Below are positions 22,747 to 44,353 of a DNA stretch of 64,000 nt, in pieces. The notes under the pieces are model-generated. The model was not told where the DNA came from, did not search any database, and was given only the letters and a program-made list of their open reading frames with translations. The DNA is from Mesorhizobium sp. DCY119 (GTDB lineage: Bacteria > Pseudomonadota > Alphaproteobacteria > Rhizobiales > Rhizobiaceae). Each line of letters opens with the position of its first letter. Position 1 is the stretch's first letter. The translations under genes and the position numbers were made by a program. The stretch lies in assembly GCF_003590645.1 (NCBI RefSeq), contig NZ_CP031834.1, positions 2,852,501-2,916,500 on the forward strand, in the 5' to 3' direction.

Positions 22747-26244
<3,498 letters not shown>

Positions 26245-26307
26245 GCGTTTGGCAGGCTTTGTGAGAGCTGCTTGTCAACGCGGAAGGTTGGCGGTGGCCG
26301 CGAAGTT

Positions 26308-26404
26308 CGTCATCCCGGAAACCGGAGCGAAGCGCAGGTTATCCGGGACCCATTGGCCGCAGTATCGGCAGGCACGGCCCGGTCCTGATGTTGGCGCGCG
26401 TTCG
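26308..26404 (+). repeat. REP-like repeat, copy A1
   Basis: A segment of about 97 bp beginning CGTCATCCCGGAAACCGGAG and ending near GCGCGCGTTCGGC. It recurs with about 85-90% identity by eye at 26544-26638, and its core recurs inverted at 26432-26487. GC-rich, without coding support. Confidence 0.75.
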
Positions 26405-26431
26405 GCACCGCTGAAGCTCCTTTCCATTCCG

Positions 26432-26487
26432 GCATGGGTCCCGGGTCTCCGCATTCGCTTCGCTCATGCTGCGCCCGGGATGACGAA
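26432..26487 (-). repeat. REP-like repeat, inverted partial copy
   Basis: Read on the minus strand, this begins CGTCATCCCGGGCGCAGC, passes AGCGAAGCG and ends GGGACCCATGCC, matching the core of the A copies. It lies between two forward copies, a forward-inverted-forward layout like bacterial interspersed mosaic elements. Confidence 0.65.
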
Positions 26488-26543
26488 GAGAGGACAGCAC
26501 TTCTAACGTCAACCTTGGCGATTGGCGGCGCCAACCATGAAGT

Positions 26544-26638
26544 CGTCATCCCGGAAACCGTAGCGAAGCGGAGGTTATCCGGGACCCATTCCGAGCATCG
26601 GCAGGCACGGTCCCGTCCTGATATTGACGCGCGTTCAG
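26544..26638 (+). repeat. REP-like repeat, copy A2
   Basis: The second forward copy, beginning CGTCATCCCGGAAACCGTAG and ending ATTGACGCGCGTTCAG. The spacing from copy A1 is 236 bp start to start. Confidence 0.75.
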
Positions 26639-26710
26639 CTGGCGACTTGCACGAGAGTTCTGCAAAGCAACCCTTCTCTCCAACACAAGTGATTTGAGCC
26701 TAGCATTCCA

Positions 26711-26775
26711 TGACATCCGTCATTCTCGACCTCGTGAGCGAGCGTTAGCGAGCGGAGAGTGTCGGGAATCCATGC
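26711..26775 (+). repeat. Diverged REP-like element
   Basis: GTCATTCTCGACCTCGTGAG followed by tandem GCGAGCG units and then GTCGGGAATCCATGCC. It keeps the layout of the A copies (GTCAT start, AGCGAAGCG-like middle, GGGAxCCAT end) but with many changes. Confidence 0.5.
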
Positions 26776-26869
26776 CGGAACATCGATGAAGCCGCTGCGG
26801 TGCAGAACTGCCGAAGCTGAAGCTCGCGAACTGGGGGAAAGATTCACCGCAAATCTCCACCCAACCCAT

Positions 26870-27290
26870 TGTTTCCATTCACATCACACATTTTTTCACC
26901 CCCAATCTTTCCACACCCCAAGACACCGCCGGCATAATCCCTCCATCGCTCTTGCGGGACCGGGTTCTGGAACCGGGATCGGGGAGAGCGGCGGTGACCT
27001 CCCGCCCTGGTGTGGTAGCCAGGAACCCGAGGGCCCGACACAGGCCGGCGTCCTGCGGCCGCATGCCCTGGCTGGAAGCTGCAGGTGAAAACCTGTGGCG
27101 GAAGGACCAAGGGCAGATCGCGCAGGATGCGGAGAACCCGCGGCGTCTTGTCCATGGAATGTACATGGAGCGGGCGTTGTGACCGGCCAACTTCGGGACA
27201 GACACCGAGACGGGCGGTCGAAAGATCGCAGAAAAATACAAAAGATGAGCGAGATTTCGGCCGCCCGTCTTTCCCGGCTCTTTGACAATG
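26870..27290. other. Non-coding segment with several hairpins (candidate structured RNA)
   Basis: No frame here has family-like protein content, and several frames on both strands stay open, as often happens by chance at high GC. Clear stems are present: CAGGT-GAAA-ACCTG near 27085, CCATG-GAATGTA-CATGG near 27153, an imperfect CCGGGTTC-TG-GAACCGGG near 26962, and a 15-bp stem at 27209-27269. The density of stems suggests an RNA gene or a structured repeat. I do not recognise it as RNase P RNA, tmRNA, 6S or SRP RNA. Strand and ends are not determined. Confidence 0.3.
27209..27269. repeat. 15-bp stem with 31-base loop
   Basis: GACGGGCGGTCGAAA (27209-27223) pairs with TTTCGGCCGCCCGTC (27255-27269), 14 of 15 as Watson-Crick and one G-T. 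A short TTTCCC follows on the plus strand. It might end a transcript coming from the left, or be the core of the structured element. Confidence 0.55.
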
Positions 27291-27322
27291 GCCAGATGCG
27301 AAAGCAGGCGTGGCGATGAACA

Positions 27323-27372
27323 GGTGCGTCCTTCGAGGCTCGCTAACGCTCGCACCTCAGGATGAGGGAGGG
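27323..27372 (+). repeat. REP-like repeat, left member of an inverted pair
   Basis: GGTGCGTCCTTCGAGGCTCG followed by AACGCTCGCACCTCAGGATGAGGGAGG. Its reverse complement, with an 11-13 base insertion, is at 27534-27593. Part of it (CTCAGGATGAGGGAGGG) also recurs directly at 27413 with few changes. Confidence 0.7.
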
Positions 27373-27412
27373 TGTGCCGGCAGAAGTCCTTTTCATGAAG
27401 GGTAGGAACGTC

Positions 27413-27441
27413 TCAGGATCAGGGAGGGTGGGCCGGTAGAG
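27413..27441 (+). repeat. Partial direct copy of the REP-like unit
   Basis: CTCAGGATCAGGGAGGGTG continues into GGCCGGTAGA, and matches 27356-27384 with 3 differences in 29 bases. This suggests a local duplication. Confidence 0.55.
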
Positions 27442-27533
27442 GCGATCCATTCTGAAATGTGCTCGCATCTCAGGAAGAGGACCGCAGTGCGCCATCCCCC
27501 ATCCTTGAAGTGTCAAAGATCGCAAGGCGCCAA

Positions 27534-27593
27534 CCTCCCTCATCCTGAGGTGCGATCCTGAGCTTGTCGAAGGGGAGCCTCGAAGGACGCACC
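27534..27593 (-). repeat. REP-like repeat, right member of an inverted pair
   Basis: CCTCCCTCATCCTGAGGTGC and onward to CGAAGGACGCACC mirrors the unit at 27323-27372. This wording (CATCCTGAGG, CTCGAAGGACG) is, from memory, a common intergenic repeat in Mesorhizobium-like genomes. Confidence 0.7.
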
Positions 27594-27604
27594 GGAGTGC
27601 ACCC

Positions 27605-27681
27605 GGGGACAGTTTACGTGTCTGCCCCGGAAAGGCGCGGCGGTTGCGATCTCGCGCAAGGGGCAAAAAGTAAACTGTCCC
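27605..27681. repeat. Small inverted-repeat element touching the oxidoreductase gene end
   Basis: GGGACAGTTTAC (27606-27617) and GTAAACTGTCCC (27670-27681) are perfect 12-bp inverted arms around 52 bases, also containing GTCTGCCCCGG and CAAGGGGCAAAAA. The right arm ends 6 bases from the stop of the oxidoreductase gene on the minus strand, so the element could act as its terminator. Such a compact form resembles a miniature repeat rather than an insertion sequence. Confidence 0.6.
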
Positions 27682-27687
27682 GGCGCC

Positions 27688-28374
27688 TCAGCCGGCCGCC
27701 GTCTCCAGCTCCCCGCGCGCCTTGGCACCAGCGATCTGGCGGATGGCGTCGGCCAGGGTGTCGCTCTCCTGCGCACCCATGACAGCGTATTTGCCCTCGA
27801 GCAGGAAGCACGGCACGCCGGTGATGCCCATGCGCGACGCGGTGGCGGCCTCGTTGGCAACCGCGTCGCGGTCGGTGTCGGTGGCAAGCATTGCTTCAAC
27901 CACCGGCGCATCCATGCCTGCCTCACGCGCGGCTTCGGTCAGAACGGCGTGGTCGCCGATGTTCTGGCCCTCTTCGAAATAGAGCTGGAACAGCCGCCGT
28001 GCGAGCTTGTTCTGCACTTCCGGGCCGGCAGCCGAGGCCCAGCGCATGACGCGGTGAGCGTCGATGGTGTTGGGAGAGACCTTGATGGCGTCGAAATCGA
28101 AGTCGATGCCTTCGGCAGCCCCCAGCGGTTCGATATTGGCGTGGATCTGGCGCAGCCGTTCCTCGCTGCCGAACTTCGCCAGCATGTATTGCTTGCGGTC
28201 CTTGCCTTCGAGCGGAATGGTCGGGTCGAGCTGGAACGGCCGCCAGCGTATCTGCACATCGACTTCGGGCACGGCGGCAACGGCCTTGTCGAGCCGCTTC
28301 TGACCTATGAAACACCAGGGGCAGACGGCGTCGGAGACGACATCGATGGTGATGGATTGCTTTTCGTCGCTCAT
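27688..28374 (-). CDS. DsbA family oxidoreductase (FrnE/HCCA-isomerase-like)
   Basis: A 228-residue thioredoxin-fold protein with the redox motif CPWC at residues 18-21 in DAVCPWCFIGQKRL, the cis-Pro loop TGVPCFLL, and the helical insertion RVMRWASAAGPEVQNKL. These features match the FrnE-type DsbA branch (cytoplasmic, no signal peptide) rather than periplasmic DsbA. Likely substrates are disulfides or polyketide-type compounds, unknown here. ATG 28374 has a strong AAGGAGG site, which fixes the start over 28413. The start lies 21 bp after the YejA-like gene stop. Confidence 0.88.
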   Translation of the reverse strand: MSDEKQSITIDVVSDAVCPWCFIGQKRLDKAVAAVPEVDVQIRWRPFQLDPTIPLEGKDRKQYMLAKFGSEERLRQIHANIEPLGAAEGIDFDFDAIKVSPNTIDAHRVMRWASAAGPEVQNKLARRLFQLYFEEGQNIGDHAVLTEAAREAGMDAPVVEAMLATDTDRDAVANEAATASRMGITGVPCFLLEGKYAVMGAQESDTLADAIRQIAGAKARGELETAAG

Positions 28375-28394
28375 CGGGAAATCCTCCTTTGCCG

Positions 28395-30215
28395 TCAATT
28401 CGGCTTCTGCCACCAGGTCGGGAAATGGTTACCGAATATAGGAGTCTTTGCCGGGTGTTCCAGATTGGCCCAATAAGCGAGGAATTCTTTCTTGTTGTGC
28501 TGCATCGGCACCATATAGGCCCCGGAAATCAGCAGGCGGTCGAGCGCGCGCACGGCAGCGACGTAGCTGTCCTTGTCGCGAGCATGCAGCATCGCCTCGA
28601 TCATCGCATCGACTGCCGGATCGGCGACACCAGCCAGATTGAACGAGCCGGGGACGTTCGCCGACTCGGAACCCCAGCGGAACGTGAGTTCGATGCCGGG
28701 TGACAGCGTGCCGAGGAAGCCCGTGGAGCCGAACAAAACGTCGAAGTCGAAACGCTGCTTGCGCATCTGGATCTGGTCGGACTCGAGCGCGCGGATGTTG
28801 ACGTCGATGCCGAGTTTTTCCAGCGAGCGCTGATAGAGTGCGGCAAGCCGCTCCTCGGTCTGCGATGTGGTCAATATCTCGAAGCTGAACGGCTCACCGT
28901 CGGCGCCGACAAGCTTGCCGCCTTCGACGCGGTAGCCCGCACTTTCCAGGAGATCGAGGGCAGCCTTCAGCACCTTGCGGTCGCGGCCGGAGCCATCCGT
29001 CACAGGCGGCTGGTAGGTGCCGTCCATGACGTCCGCCGGCACCTTGCCGGGGAAGGGCGCAAGAAGCGCGCGTTCTGCCTCGCTTGCCGGGCGTCCGAGC
29101 GCGGAAAGCTCGGAATCCTGCCAGAAGCTCGCCGTGCGCTTGTACTGGCCGTCGAACATGTTCTTGTTGGCCCATTCGAAATCGTAGAGCATGCCGAGCG
29201 CGCGGCGCACCCTGACATCGGCGAATTTCGGCAGCCGCGTGTTGAACAGGAAGCCATTGACCACCGGCGGCAGGCCGCTCTCGAAGTCTTCGGTGACGAC
29301 CCTGCCGTCCTTGAGGGCCGGAAAATCGAAGCTGCGCTCGCGCTTGACCGGGTCGGCCTCGGCGAAGGTCGAGCAGATGCCTTTCTTGAAGGCCTCGAAC
29401 ATAGCGTTGGCATTCAGGAAATATTCGAGCGTGACGCGGTCGAAATTGTCGATGCCACGCTTCACCGGCAGATCTTTGGCCCAGTAATCAGGGTTGCGCT
29501 CGAAGACGATGCGCTGGCCCGGTGCCACCTTGCCAACCCGGTATGGCCCGCTGCCGATCACCGGCTTCAGCGTCGTCTGGTCGAAAGTCTCCTTGTTGAA
29601 GAAGTGCTTCGGCACGATCGGCGTCATCGCGATGATCAGCGGAAATTCGCGGTCGGCAAGTTCGTTGAAAGTGAAGCGCACGCTGAGATCGCCGGTCTTT
29701 TCAAGCTTGGCGATCTTCTTCATGCGGTCGCTGTAAGGGGGGCGGCCTTTTTCCGTGTAGACCTCGTAGGTGAAGATAACATCGTCGGCCGTCACGGGTT
29801 CGCCGTCGGACCACTTTGCCTTCGGGTTGAGGTGGAATTCGACCGATTTGCGATCTTCCGGCATGTCGATCGACTCAGCCAGCAGGCCGTAAAGCGAAAA
29901 AGGCTCGTCCATGCTGCGCTGCATCAGCGATTCGAAGACCAGATTGCCGTAGATCGTGTCGATCATGCCGCGCGCCGTGGTGCGCAGGCTCTTGATGATG
30001 AATGGGTTCAGATTGTCGAAGCTGCCGACCACACAATAGGTGACGCTGCCGCCCTTGGGTGCATCCGGATTGACGTAGGGAAAATTCGAAAAATCTTCAG
30101 GCAGGGCCGGCTCTCCCTGCATCGCAACCGCGTGCTTCGGCTCGGCCAGTGCCGCAGCCCCAAGCGCCGGCAACAAGGCCATGGCGGCACAGAGCGATAG
30201 AAACATGCGGCACAT
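28395..30215 (-). CDS. ABC transporter binding protein, YejA-like (family 5)
   Basis: A 606-residue periplasmic solute-binding protein. The signal peptide spans about 1-24 (MALLPALGAAALA). The mature N-terminus has HAVAMQGEPALPEDFSNFPY and NPDAPKGGSVTY, a form typical of YejA-type proteins that take up oligopeptides or microcin C-like compounds. WSDGEPVTADDVIFTYEVY is the family 5 core. Starts at 30215 and 30206 are both possible. Cognate permeases and ATPase are not adjacent, so it is an orphan in this window. Followed on the same strand by the oxidoreductase gene. Confidence 0.85.
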   Translation of the reverse strand: MCRMFLSLCAAMALLPALGAAALAEPKHAVAMQGEPALPEDFSNFPYVNPDAPKGGSVTYCVVGSFDNLNPFIIKSLRTTARGMIDTIYGNLVFESLMQRSMDEPFSLYGLLAESIDMPEDRKSVEFHLNPKAKWSDGEPVTADDVIFTYEVYTEKGRPPYSDRMKKIAKLEKTGDLSVRFTFNELADREFPLIIAMTPIVPKHFFNKETFDQTTLKPVIGSGPYRVGKVAPGQRIVFERNPDYWAKDLPVKRGIDNFDRVTLEYFLNANAMFEAFKKGICSTFAEADPVKRERSFDFPALKDGRVVTEDFESGLPPVVNGFLFNTRLPKFADVRVRRALGMLYDFEWANKNMFDGQYKRTASFWQDSELSALGRPASEAERALLAPFPGKVPADVMDGTYQPPVTDGSGRDRKVLKAALDLLESAGYRVEGGKLVGADGEPFSFEILTTSQTEERLAALYQRSLEKLGIDVNIRALESDQIQMRKQRFDFDVLFGSTGFLGTLSPGIELTFRWGSESANVPGSFNLAGVADPAVDAMIEAMLHARDKDSYVAAVRALDRLLISGAYMVPMQHNKKEFLAYWANLEHPAKTPIFGNHFPTWWQKPN

Positions 30216-44263: not shown

Positions 44264-44353
44264 TGGCGGAGGGAGTGGGATTCGAACCCACGGTGAGCTT
44301 GCACCCACGCCGGTTTTCAAGACCGGTGCCTTAAACCGCTCGGCCATCCCTCC
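44264..44353 (-). tRNA. tRNA-Ser (anticodon UGA)
   Basis: A 90-base serine tRNA including an encoded CCA. The acceptor stem GGAGGGA (44353-44347) pairs with TCCCTCC, followed by G and CCA. The anticodon loop CTTGAAA gives UGA. The long variable arm expected for serine is present (GTGGGTGCAAGCTCAC), and the T arm has GGGTTCGAATCCC. It reads leftward and is upstream of the TerC-family gene. Confidence 0.95.

Follow-up and report, generated by a model that had tools for sequence, protein, structure and literature searches.

A dispersed family of candidate structured RNAs in Mesorhizobium sp. DCY119 and its relatives

We wanted to know whether an apparently non-coding segment of the Mesorhizobium sp. 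DCY119 genome encodes an RNA. The segment occupies positions 26870 to 27290 of a stretch of 64,000 nucleotides (nt) of contig NZ_CP031834.1 (positions 2,852,501 to 2,916,500, forward strand), which we call the window and whose numbering is used throughout. A first-pass annotation, made from the letters alone, had proposed it as a candidate new RNA. We found that the segment belongs to a multicopy family dispersed over the genome, and that its homologues carry abundant compensatory base changes on the plus strand, which supports that proposal.

Structure and promoter of the window copy

We call the RNA body of the window copy type A. Covariation was counted in an alignment of 25 of 29 type A representatives (L123, L167, L070 and L067 were left out), in which the middle of the body is poorly aligned. 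The structure of 33 pairs was drawn from the same sequences on which it was counted, and pairing percentages therefore lean towards it: 95.3% of 825 cells were paired, compared with 87.4% in shuffles. Changes on both sides were observed in 14 of the 33 pairs (6.0 in shuffles) and such cells numbered 59 (13.4 in shuffles), while the covariation score was 0.283 (0.136 in shuffles). None of 500 shuffles was as good on four of five measures and one was as good on the fifth; since related sequences are not independent, these shuffle counts are not probabilities. When the partners were slid by 1-3 columns, pairing fell to 31.4-54.6%.

A long-range helix, P3a, was assessed separately in 28 sequences that were placed by sequence anchors and not by alignment (L167, one of the 29, has no anchor and was left out; in L123 the end is misplaced, with two of four positions paired). 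It paired in 110 of 112 positions with 11 strand combinations, and none of 5000 shuffles was as good. The two strands are separated by 157 nt in the window copy and by about 80-190 nt in the others. P3a was 100% paired in the alignment of 25 sequences too.

Over the structure there were 69 G-U cells versus 5 A-C cells, or 46 versus 5 when one pair that is nearly always U-G was set aside. Therefore the plus strand is taken as the RNA strand. Its minimum free energy was -193.4 kcal/mol (z = -4.53, equalled by 0 of 100 shuffles), compared with z = -2.42 for the minus strand (equalled by 2 of 100 shuffles). An RNA on the minus strand was rejected because of the weaker fold and the G-U bias. By the compensatory base changes in its homologues, type A is a predicted structured non-coding RNA.

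Type A also has a predicted promoter of its own. The best -10 hexamer matched TATAAT in at least five of six bases in 101 of 120 distinct type-A-like upstream regions from several genomes, compared with 2.8% of shuffles, and in 117 of the 120 the -10 box begins 11 or 12 nt upstream of the body. In an independent promoter scan of 26700-27450, TCCACA-17-CATAAT was the only sigma-70-like site (shuffle mean 0.2).

The features of the window copy are as follows.

26835..26932, plus strand: upstream promoter region (GGAAAGATT..., T/C-rich blocks, CATTTTTTC), common to the copies in the alignment of 19 copies of this genome
26910-26915, plus strand: -35-like TCCACA (promoter scan)
26933..26938, plus strand: -10 box CATAAT, whose first base lies 11 nt 5' of the start of the RNA body
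26944..27207, plus strand: type A RNA body (264 nt) of the long sub-form A1, with its start predicted at or beside 26944-26945
26946..26991, plus strand: P0 hairpin with the internal motif CGGGA(A)C / CCGGG(G)AUC
26992..26996, plus strand: P1 5' strand CGGUG, pairing with 27203-27207 (CACCG) and closing the body
26998..27032, plus strand: P2 (covariation count) with inner stem P2b (CCUGG...CCAGG)
27034..27037, plus strand: P3a 5' strand CCCG, long-range pairing with 27194-27197 (CGGG)
27043..27048, plus strand: P3b 5' strand GGCCGG, pairing with 27183-27188 (CCGGCC)
27049..27182, plus strand: variable middle with the long A1 insert, a GCGG-AGAAC-CCGC hairpin and a CCAUGGAAUGUACAUGG hairpin (alignments)
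27194..27207, plus strand: P3a 3' strand CGGG, then junction ACAG, then P1 3' strand (alignment)
27208..27276, plus strand: 3' terminal hairpin of the kind hp1 (inverted repeat with 22-nt arms, 86% complementary), then UUUCCC
27279..27319, plus strand: tail TCTTTGACA, then a hairpin GCCAGATGC-GAAA-GCAGGCGTGGC, then GATGA

The helices differed in how they paired in the alignment of 25 sequences. In P0, 97.0% of cells were paired in the outer helix and 96.0% in the inner one, with four of ten pairs changed on both sides. P1 was paired in 93.6% of cells and showed U-A to C-G and G-C to A-U changes. P2 was paired in 100% of cells with three of four pairs changed on both sides; the count does not include P2b, whose register differs between groups. 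P3b was likewise 100% paired, with one of six pairs double-changed. The GCGG hairpin of the middle (helix 7) was paired in just 77.0% of cells. The sequence GACAG at the junction was invariant in all 25 sequences.

The perfect short stems of the first-pass annotation are real, including the one with a GAAA loop, which reads TGC-GAAA-GCA at 27297-27306. So is its terminal stem, formed by 27208-27229 and 27249-27270. Its statement that the segment holds no credible protein agrees with a search against Pfam, in which none of seven open reading frames (ORFs) matched at E values up to 0.1. Homologues vary by many insertions and deletions, and a protein-coding role was rejected. The annotation had also matched the segment to no common RNA. 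A scan against Rfam 15 (4227 models), which scores sequence jointly with structure, gave nothing reaching the gathering score in the segment, and with a relaxed E value the best match in 26240-27700 had E = 0.95, far under the cut-off.

Copies and body types in the genome

A DNA search of the DCY119 genome returned 22 matches, of which 19 spanned most of the query and three were limited to the 3' hairpin region. A covariance model built from 17 sequences of the 5' domain (R1) recovered the same 19 type A copies with E values from 4.1e-20 to 1.5e-16. The segment had been described as a single isolated one of about 400 bp. This was too small a picture, as there are 18 further copies in the same genome and the promoter and tail recur too. 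Type A has two sub-forms distinguished by the middle of the body, A1 with 9 copies and A2 with 10; in A2 the A1 insert is replaced by a shorter, different one.

R1 gave two weaker matches in the same genome (E = 0.018 and 0.028), which we read as type B: a different body between a promoter and a 3' hairpin of the same kinds. Two further R1 matches (E = 0.445 and 0.658) were left out of the counts. One tail pattern had 13 exact matches in the genome and none in a reversed control. Two of the 13 lay away from the type A and B sites, and by following the tail motif to such matches we discovered type C. A second covariance model (R2), built from 9 sequences, detected at least five copies of type C in DCY119 (9 and 12 candidates were scored). 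The genome thus holds at least 26 copies, 19 of type A, two of type B and at least five of type C.

By eye, the three types have one architecture. Each has a T/C-rich upstream region, a -35-like TCCACA or TTTATCCCCA block and a -10 box. The P0 hairpin is recognisable in all three through its internal motif GGGAAC...CCGG...GAU(C). P1 closes the body, and ACAGA, CAAGAA or ACAGAAA stands 5' of the P1 3' strand. Each type ends with a 3' hairpin of one of two kinds, followed by CTTCCC and the tail. Among the 19 type A copies the hairpin was hp1 in 6 and hp2 in 13. The tail TCTTTGACA / CTCTTTGACA may be boxA-like.

The 21 type A and B copies occur in all four orientation contexts (7, 5, 5 and 4 copies) and have no common neighbour; this count uses home-made gene calls, of which a few neighbours look spurious. 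No called ORF is overlapped by 20 of the 21 copies, and one (L174) overlaps a low-scoring ORF.

In the window, the segment is flanked by a gene on the plus strand that ends at 26244 and a convergent one on the minus strand (27688-28413), both from the ORF list. We take them to be mfd-like and DsbA-like, respectively, from our own reading of the ORFs. Several repeats lie close by. Two direct repeat pairs with a REP-like look (REP, repetitive extragenic palindrome) stand 3' of the mfd-like gene, 26307-26354 / 26543-26590 (TCGTCATCCCGGAAACCG...) and 26361-26406 / 26594-26639 (AGTATCGGCAGGCACGG...), with a spacing of 233-236 nt within the pairs. A repeat family GGTGCGTCCTTCGAGGCTC...CTCAGGATGAGGGAGG trails the tail in many, not all, copies of this genome; in the window it forms the inverted arms 27342-27374/27531-27563 and 27323-27341/27575-27593. 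The sequence GGTGCAGAACTGCCGAAGCTGAAGC at 26799-26823 stands, in full or diverged form, 5' of the promoter in most type A copies. Since it is missing from a few of them, it looks like a separate associated repeat. Elsewhere in the window, a tRNA-Ser gene (anticodon tga, 44264-44353; Rfam match 44267-44353) was the sole tRNA and the sole Rfam match at gathering score.

We also gave type A, B and C loci to Rfam 15. They had no credible match at a relaxed E value. The only match above a cut-off was a 6S RNA gene of another genome (L153, 1891-2047, 85.2 bits), a few hundred bases from a type A copy; the recovery of this true 6S RNA indicates that the search works. Matches resembling microRNAs or small nucleolar RNAs (best E = 0.0005) were far under the cut-offs and were treated as chance. 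A possible likeness of the ACAGA junction to RNase P was dropped, as none of the RNase P models gave a match and the changes in P1 are covarying ones.

Distribution and orthologous sites

We searched 394 genomes of the host's bacterial family, which comprise 109 genera. R1 matched at least 44 genomes (18 genera) and R2 at least 57 (29 genera). From the two lists, at least 78 genomes had R1 or R2 and at least 23 had both. All these values are lower bounds, as at most 9 candidates per genome were scored under strict filters; the weakest matches, near E = 0.001, were unread. In order-wide samples R1 matched 2 of 397 genomes, both of the host's family. R2, at E values up to 0.01, matched 3 of 297, namely the DCY119 genome and two of other families, both at E = 0.0099, which we treated as chance. 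In the samples searched, practically all matches fell within one bacterial family. The exact type A pattern was found in 93 stretches of the genome_contigs collection, which came from Mesorhizobium, Chelativorans, Nitratireductor, Aliihoeflea or one metagenome-assembled genome (MAG) of a Rhizobiaceae bacterium; 31 of them belonged to one Chelativorans MAG.

A plasmid or phage origin was rejected: by blastn, neither the 72,556 plasmid records nor the 50,697 phage records contained a match to type A. Type B was likewise without a blastn match in the plasmid records, and the exact type A pattern was absent from viral contigs. These searches are blind to distant forms and covered types A and B, not type C.

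The copies within the genome are most alike in their bodies. Mean pairwise body identity was 97.5% among the 9 A1 copies and 98.9% among the 10 A2 copies. In the 75 nt upstream it was 84.5% and 78.3%, respectively, and in the 3' hairpin and tail 71.5% and 78.9%. This excess of body identity over the flanks is, as far as the alignments tell, concerted evolution. The modules have also reassorted: of the 12 possible combinations of two bodies, two hairpins and three tails, 9 are present among the 19 type A copies.

We compared the 26 sites of DCY119 with 16 sites fetched from a sister species of the same genus (G104). Fifteen of these 16 are in orthologous places, although three of the 15 pairs align on one side only, at contig ends. 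The G104 assembly consists of about 60 contigs, and three copies lie at contig ends, so that its count is a lower bound. The pairs were nine A-A, four C-C, one A-C and one B-C. The A-C site is clean. The 5' flank matches closely through the upstream promoter region, the bodies are unrelated, and beyond them the two genomes again share the 3' hairpin, the tail and a closely matching 3' flank. At this site one body has been replaced by another, and such an exchange between sister species suggests a working RNA repertoire.

In a second genus (genomes G165, G225 and G086) we obtained 10 orthologous pairs, not all independent, and five of them had different types by model labels. The comparison covered 36 fetched sites of more that were found; sites marked 'a' are weak R1 matches of unread type.

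Proposed role and alternative explanations

We think it rather probable that these units are a dispersed, co-regulated and autonomously transcribed family of trans-acting, probably protein-binding RNAs, whose copies are homogenised and swapped by gene conversion. Each unit would consist of one kind of promoter, a type A, B or C body that starts with P0 and is closed by P1, a 3' hairpin and a tail. The RNAs would act in trans, since the genes next to the type A and B copies share nothing and their orientation is mixed. Each RNA would most likely fold to a compact particle that binds a protein via the internal loop of P0 and the (G)ACAGA-type junction next to P1. We propose protein binding because conservation concerns a compact fold, whose internal loop and junction motif recur in all three types, and not a long single-stranded stretch. 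Homologous recombination or gene conversion may keep the copies alike and at times switch the body type, with the common promoter on one side and the 3' hairpin plus tail on the other as homology arms.

Several observations weigh against this reading. The R1 and R2 matches are spread patchily over the genomes of the family, and R1 copy number in the 12 positive genomes chosen varied between 4 and 24, as that of a selfish repeat might. A terminator scan of 26700-27450 gave no terminator-like site on the plus strand; the 3' terminal hairpin has no U-run and is not a canonical terminator. At the B-C site the promoter is conserved and the 3' side is not cleanly conserved. For eleven of the 26 sites, none of the fetched G104 copies was a counterpart. 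The window's own site was the one of these 11 that was checked, and its orthologous place in G104 (L208, C1:494600-496100) holds no body, other DNA of similar length and a diverged tail. In the two differing pairs of the second genus that were read, the bodies differ and the hairpin and tail are partly common. The promoters of these pairs differ too, so independent insertion may have taken place there.

Some of these points would suit a non-autonomous mobile or mosaic repeat, whose fold would serve its own mobilisation, possibly as single-stranded DNA, without any RNA function in the cell. Such a repeat could resemble miniature inverted-repeat transposable elements, or Rhizobium-specific intergenic mosaic elements (RIME) and bacterial interspersed mosaic elements (BIME), which are dispersed intergenic mosaics of palindromic modules. 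The type A, B and C units are such a mosaic too. Their dispersal in mixed orientation, the variable copy number, the reassortment of modules, the other repeats around the segment, the 11 sites without counterpart and the bodiless tail in G104 are all in keeping with it. However, a G-U bias on one strand is not expected of a DNA structure, the promoter box stands at fixed spacing, and 15 of the 16 sister-species sites are in orthologous places. Judged by description, the units differ from RIME and BIME in the promoter, the strand bias, the covariation and the long non-palindromic body. No terminal inverted repeats or target-site duplications were noticed by eye in the 19-copy alignment, which was not searched systematically. 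According to a published classification, candidates for mobile elements or repeats are multicopy motifs, especially those of inconsistent orientation, and are often tied to nearby transposase, integrase, nuclease or helicase genes (PMC11109978). In contrast to that category, no such gene was recognised by eye beside the 21 type A and B copies of DCY119, whose neighbours were not run against a family library. The first-pass annotation had named a repeat without RNA role as what would speak against its proposal. The segment is indeed a dispersed repeat; the compensatory changes, the strand bias and the promoter box at its fixed place speak for a role as RNA, so this objection is only partly excluded. 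On balance we consider a mobile or mosaic repeat without cellular RNA function rather unlikely.

Two other explanations keep an RNA role and change its kind. The units might be cis-acting elements (leaders, attenuators or terminators) of neighbouring genes, as the GC-rich 3' hairpin with its presumed boxA-like tail and, in some genomes, a long ORF following in the same direction would allow. We regard this as very improbable, given that the 21 copies have no neighbour or orientation in common and the window copy faces a convergent gene. An antisense-type family of regulatory small RNAs that pair with many messenger RNAs would fit trans action from mixed neighbourhoods. Multicopy families of trans-acting small RNAs do occur in Rhizobiales; examples are RFMSmelA075 and RFMSmelA099, which, like the present family, have several copies per genome at dispersed loci and presumably act in trans (PMC3927594). 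Here, however, the conserved parts are mostly helical and partly long-range, and no long conserved single-stranded stretch was noticed. An antisense role is therefore improbable. Judged by their published description, RFMSmelA075 and RFMSmelA099 also differ from the present RNAs, which have a multibranched fold of 194-300 nt with long-range helices.

Multicopy structured RNA genes are of a known kind, and the type A, B and C family itself has no described counterpart that we found in Rfam 15 or the literature searched. The Rhizobiales-1 motif, which comes from the same order, was listed in 2010 as a candidate RNA without Rfam accession (PMC2864571) and may or may not belong to the family.

We would tentatively go further and see in the family a repertoire of RNA cassettes. 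Lasting chromosomal expression sites, each made of the promoter and the 3' hairpin with tail, would hold interchangeable bodies of several unrelated types, which gene conversion between the common arms would homogenise and switch. This likens the switching of RNA bodies to the antigen-variation loci known for proteins. Turnover of bodies in lasting sites would fit either selection for novelty or simple recombination between repeats, and one possible driver of it is an arms race, such as one with phages. No description of such a body swap with retention of the site was found for bacteria in the literature searched.

In summary, at least 26 predicted promoters for one large family of folded RNAs would mean that annotation has missed an RNA activity in Mesorhizobium, Chelativorans, Nitratireductor, Aliihoeflea and their relatives. 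As the copies are many and the structure can be tested, the function of the family is directly approachable. If true, expression sites that are retained while their RNA bodies are swapped would be an evolutionary route for non-coding RNA genes.
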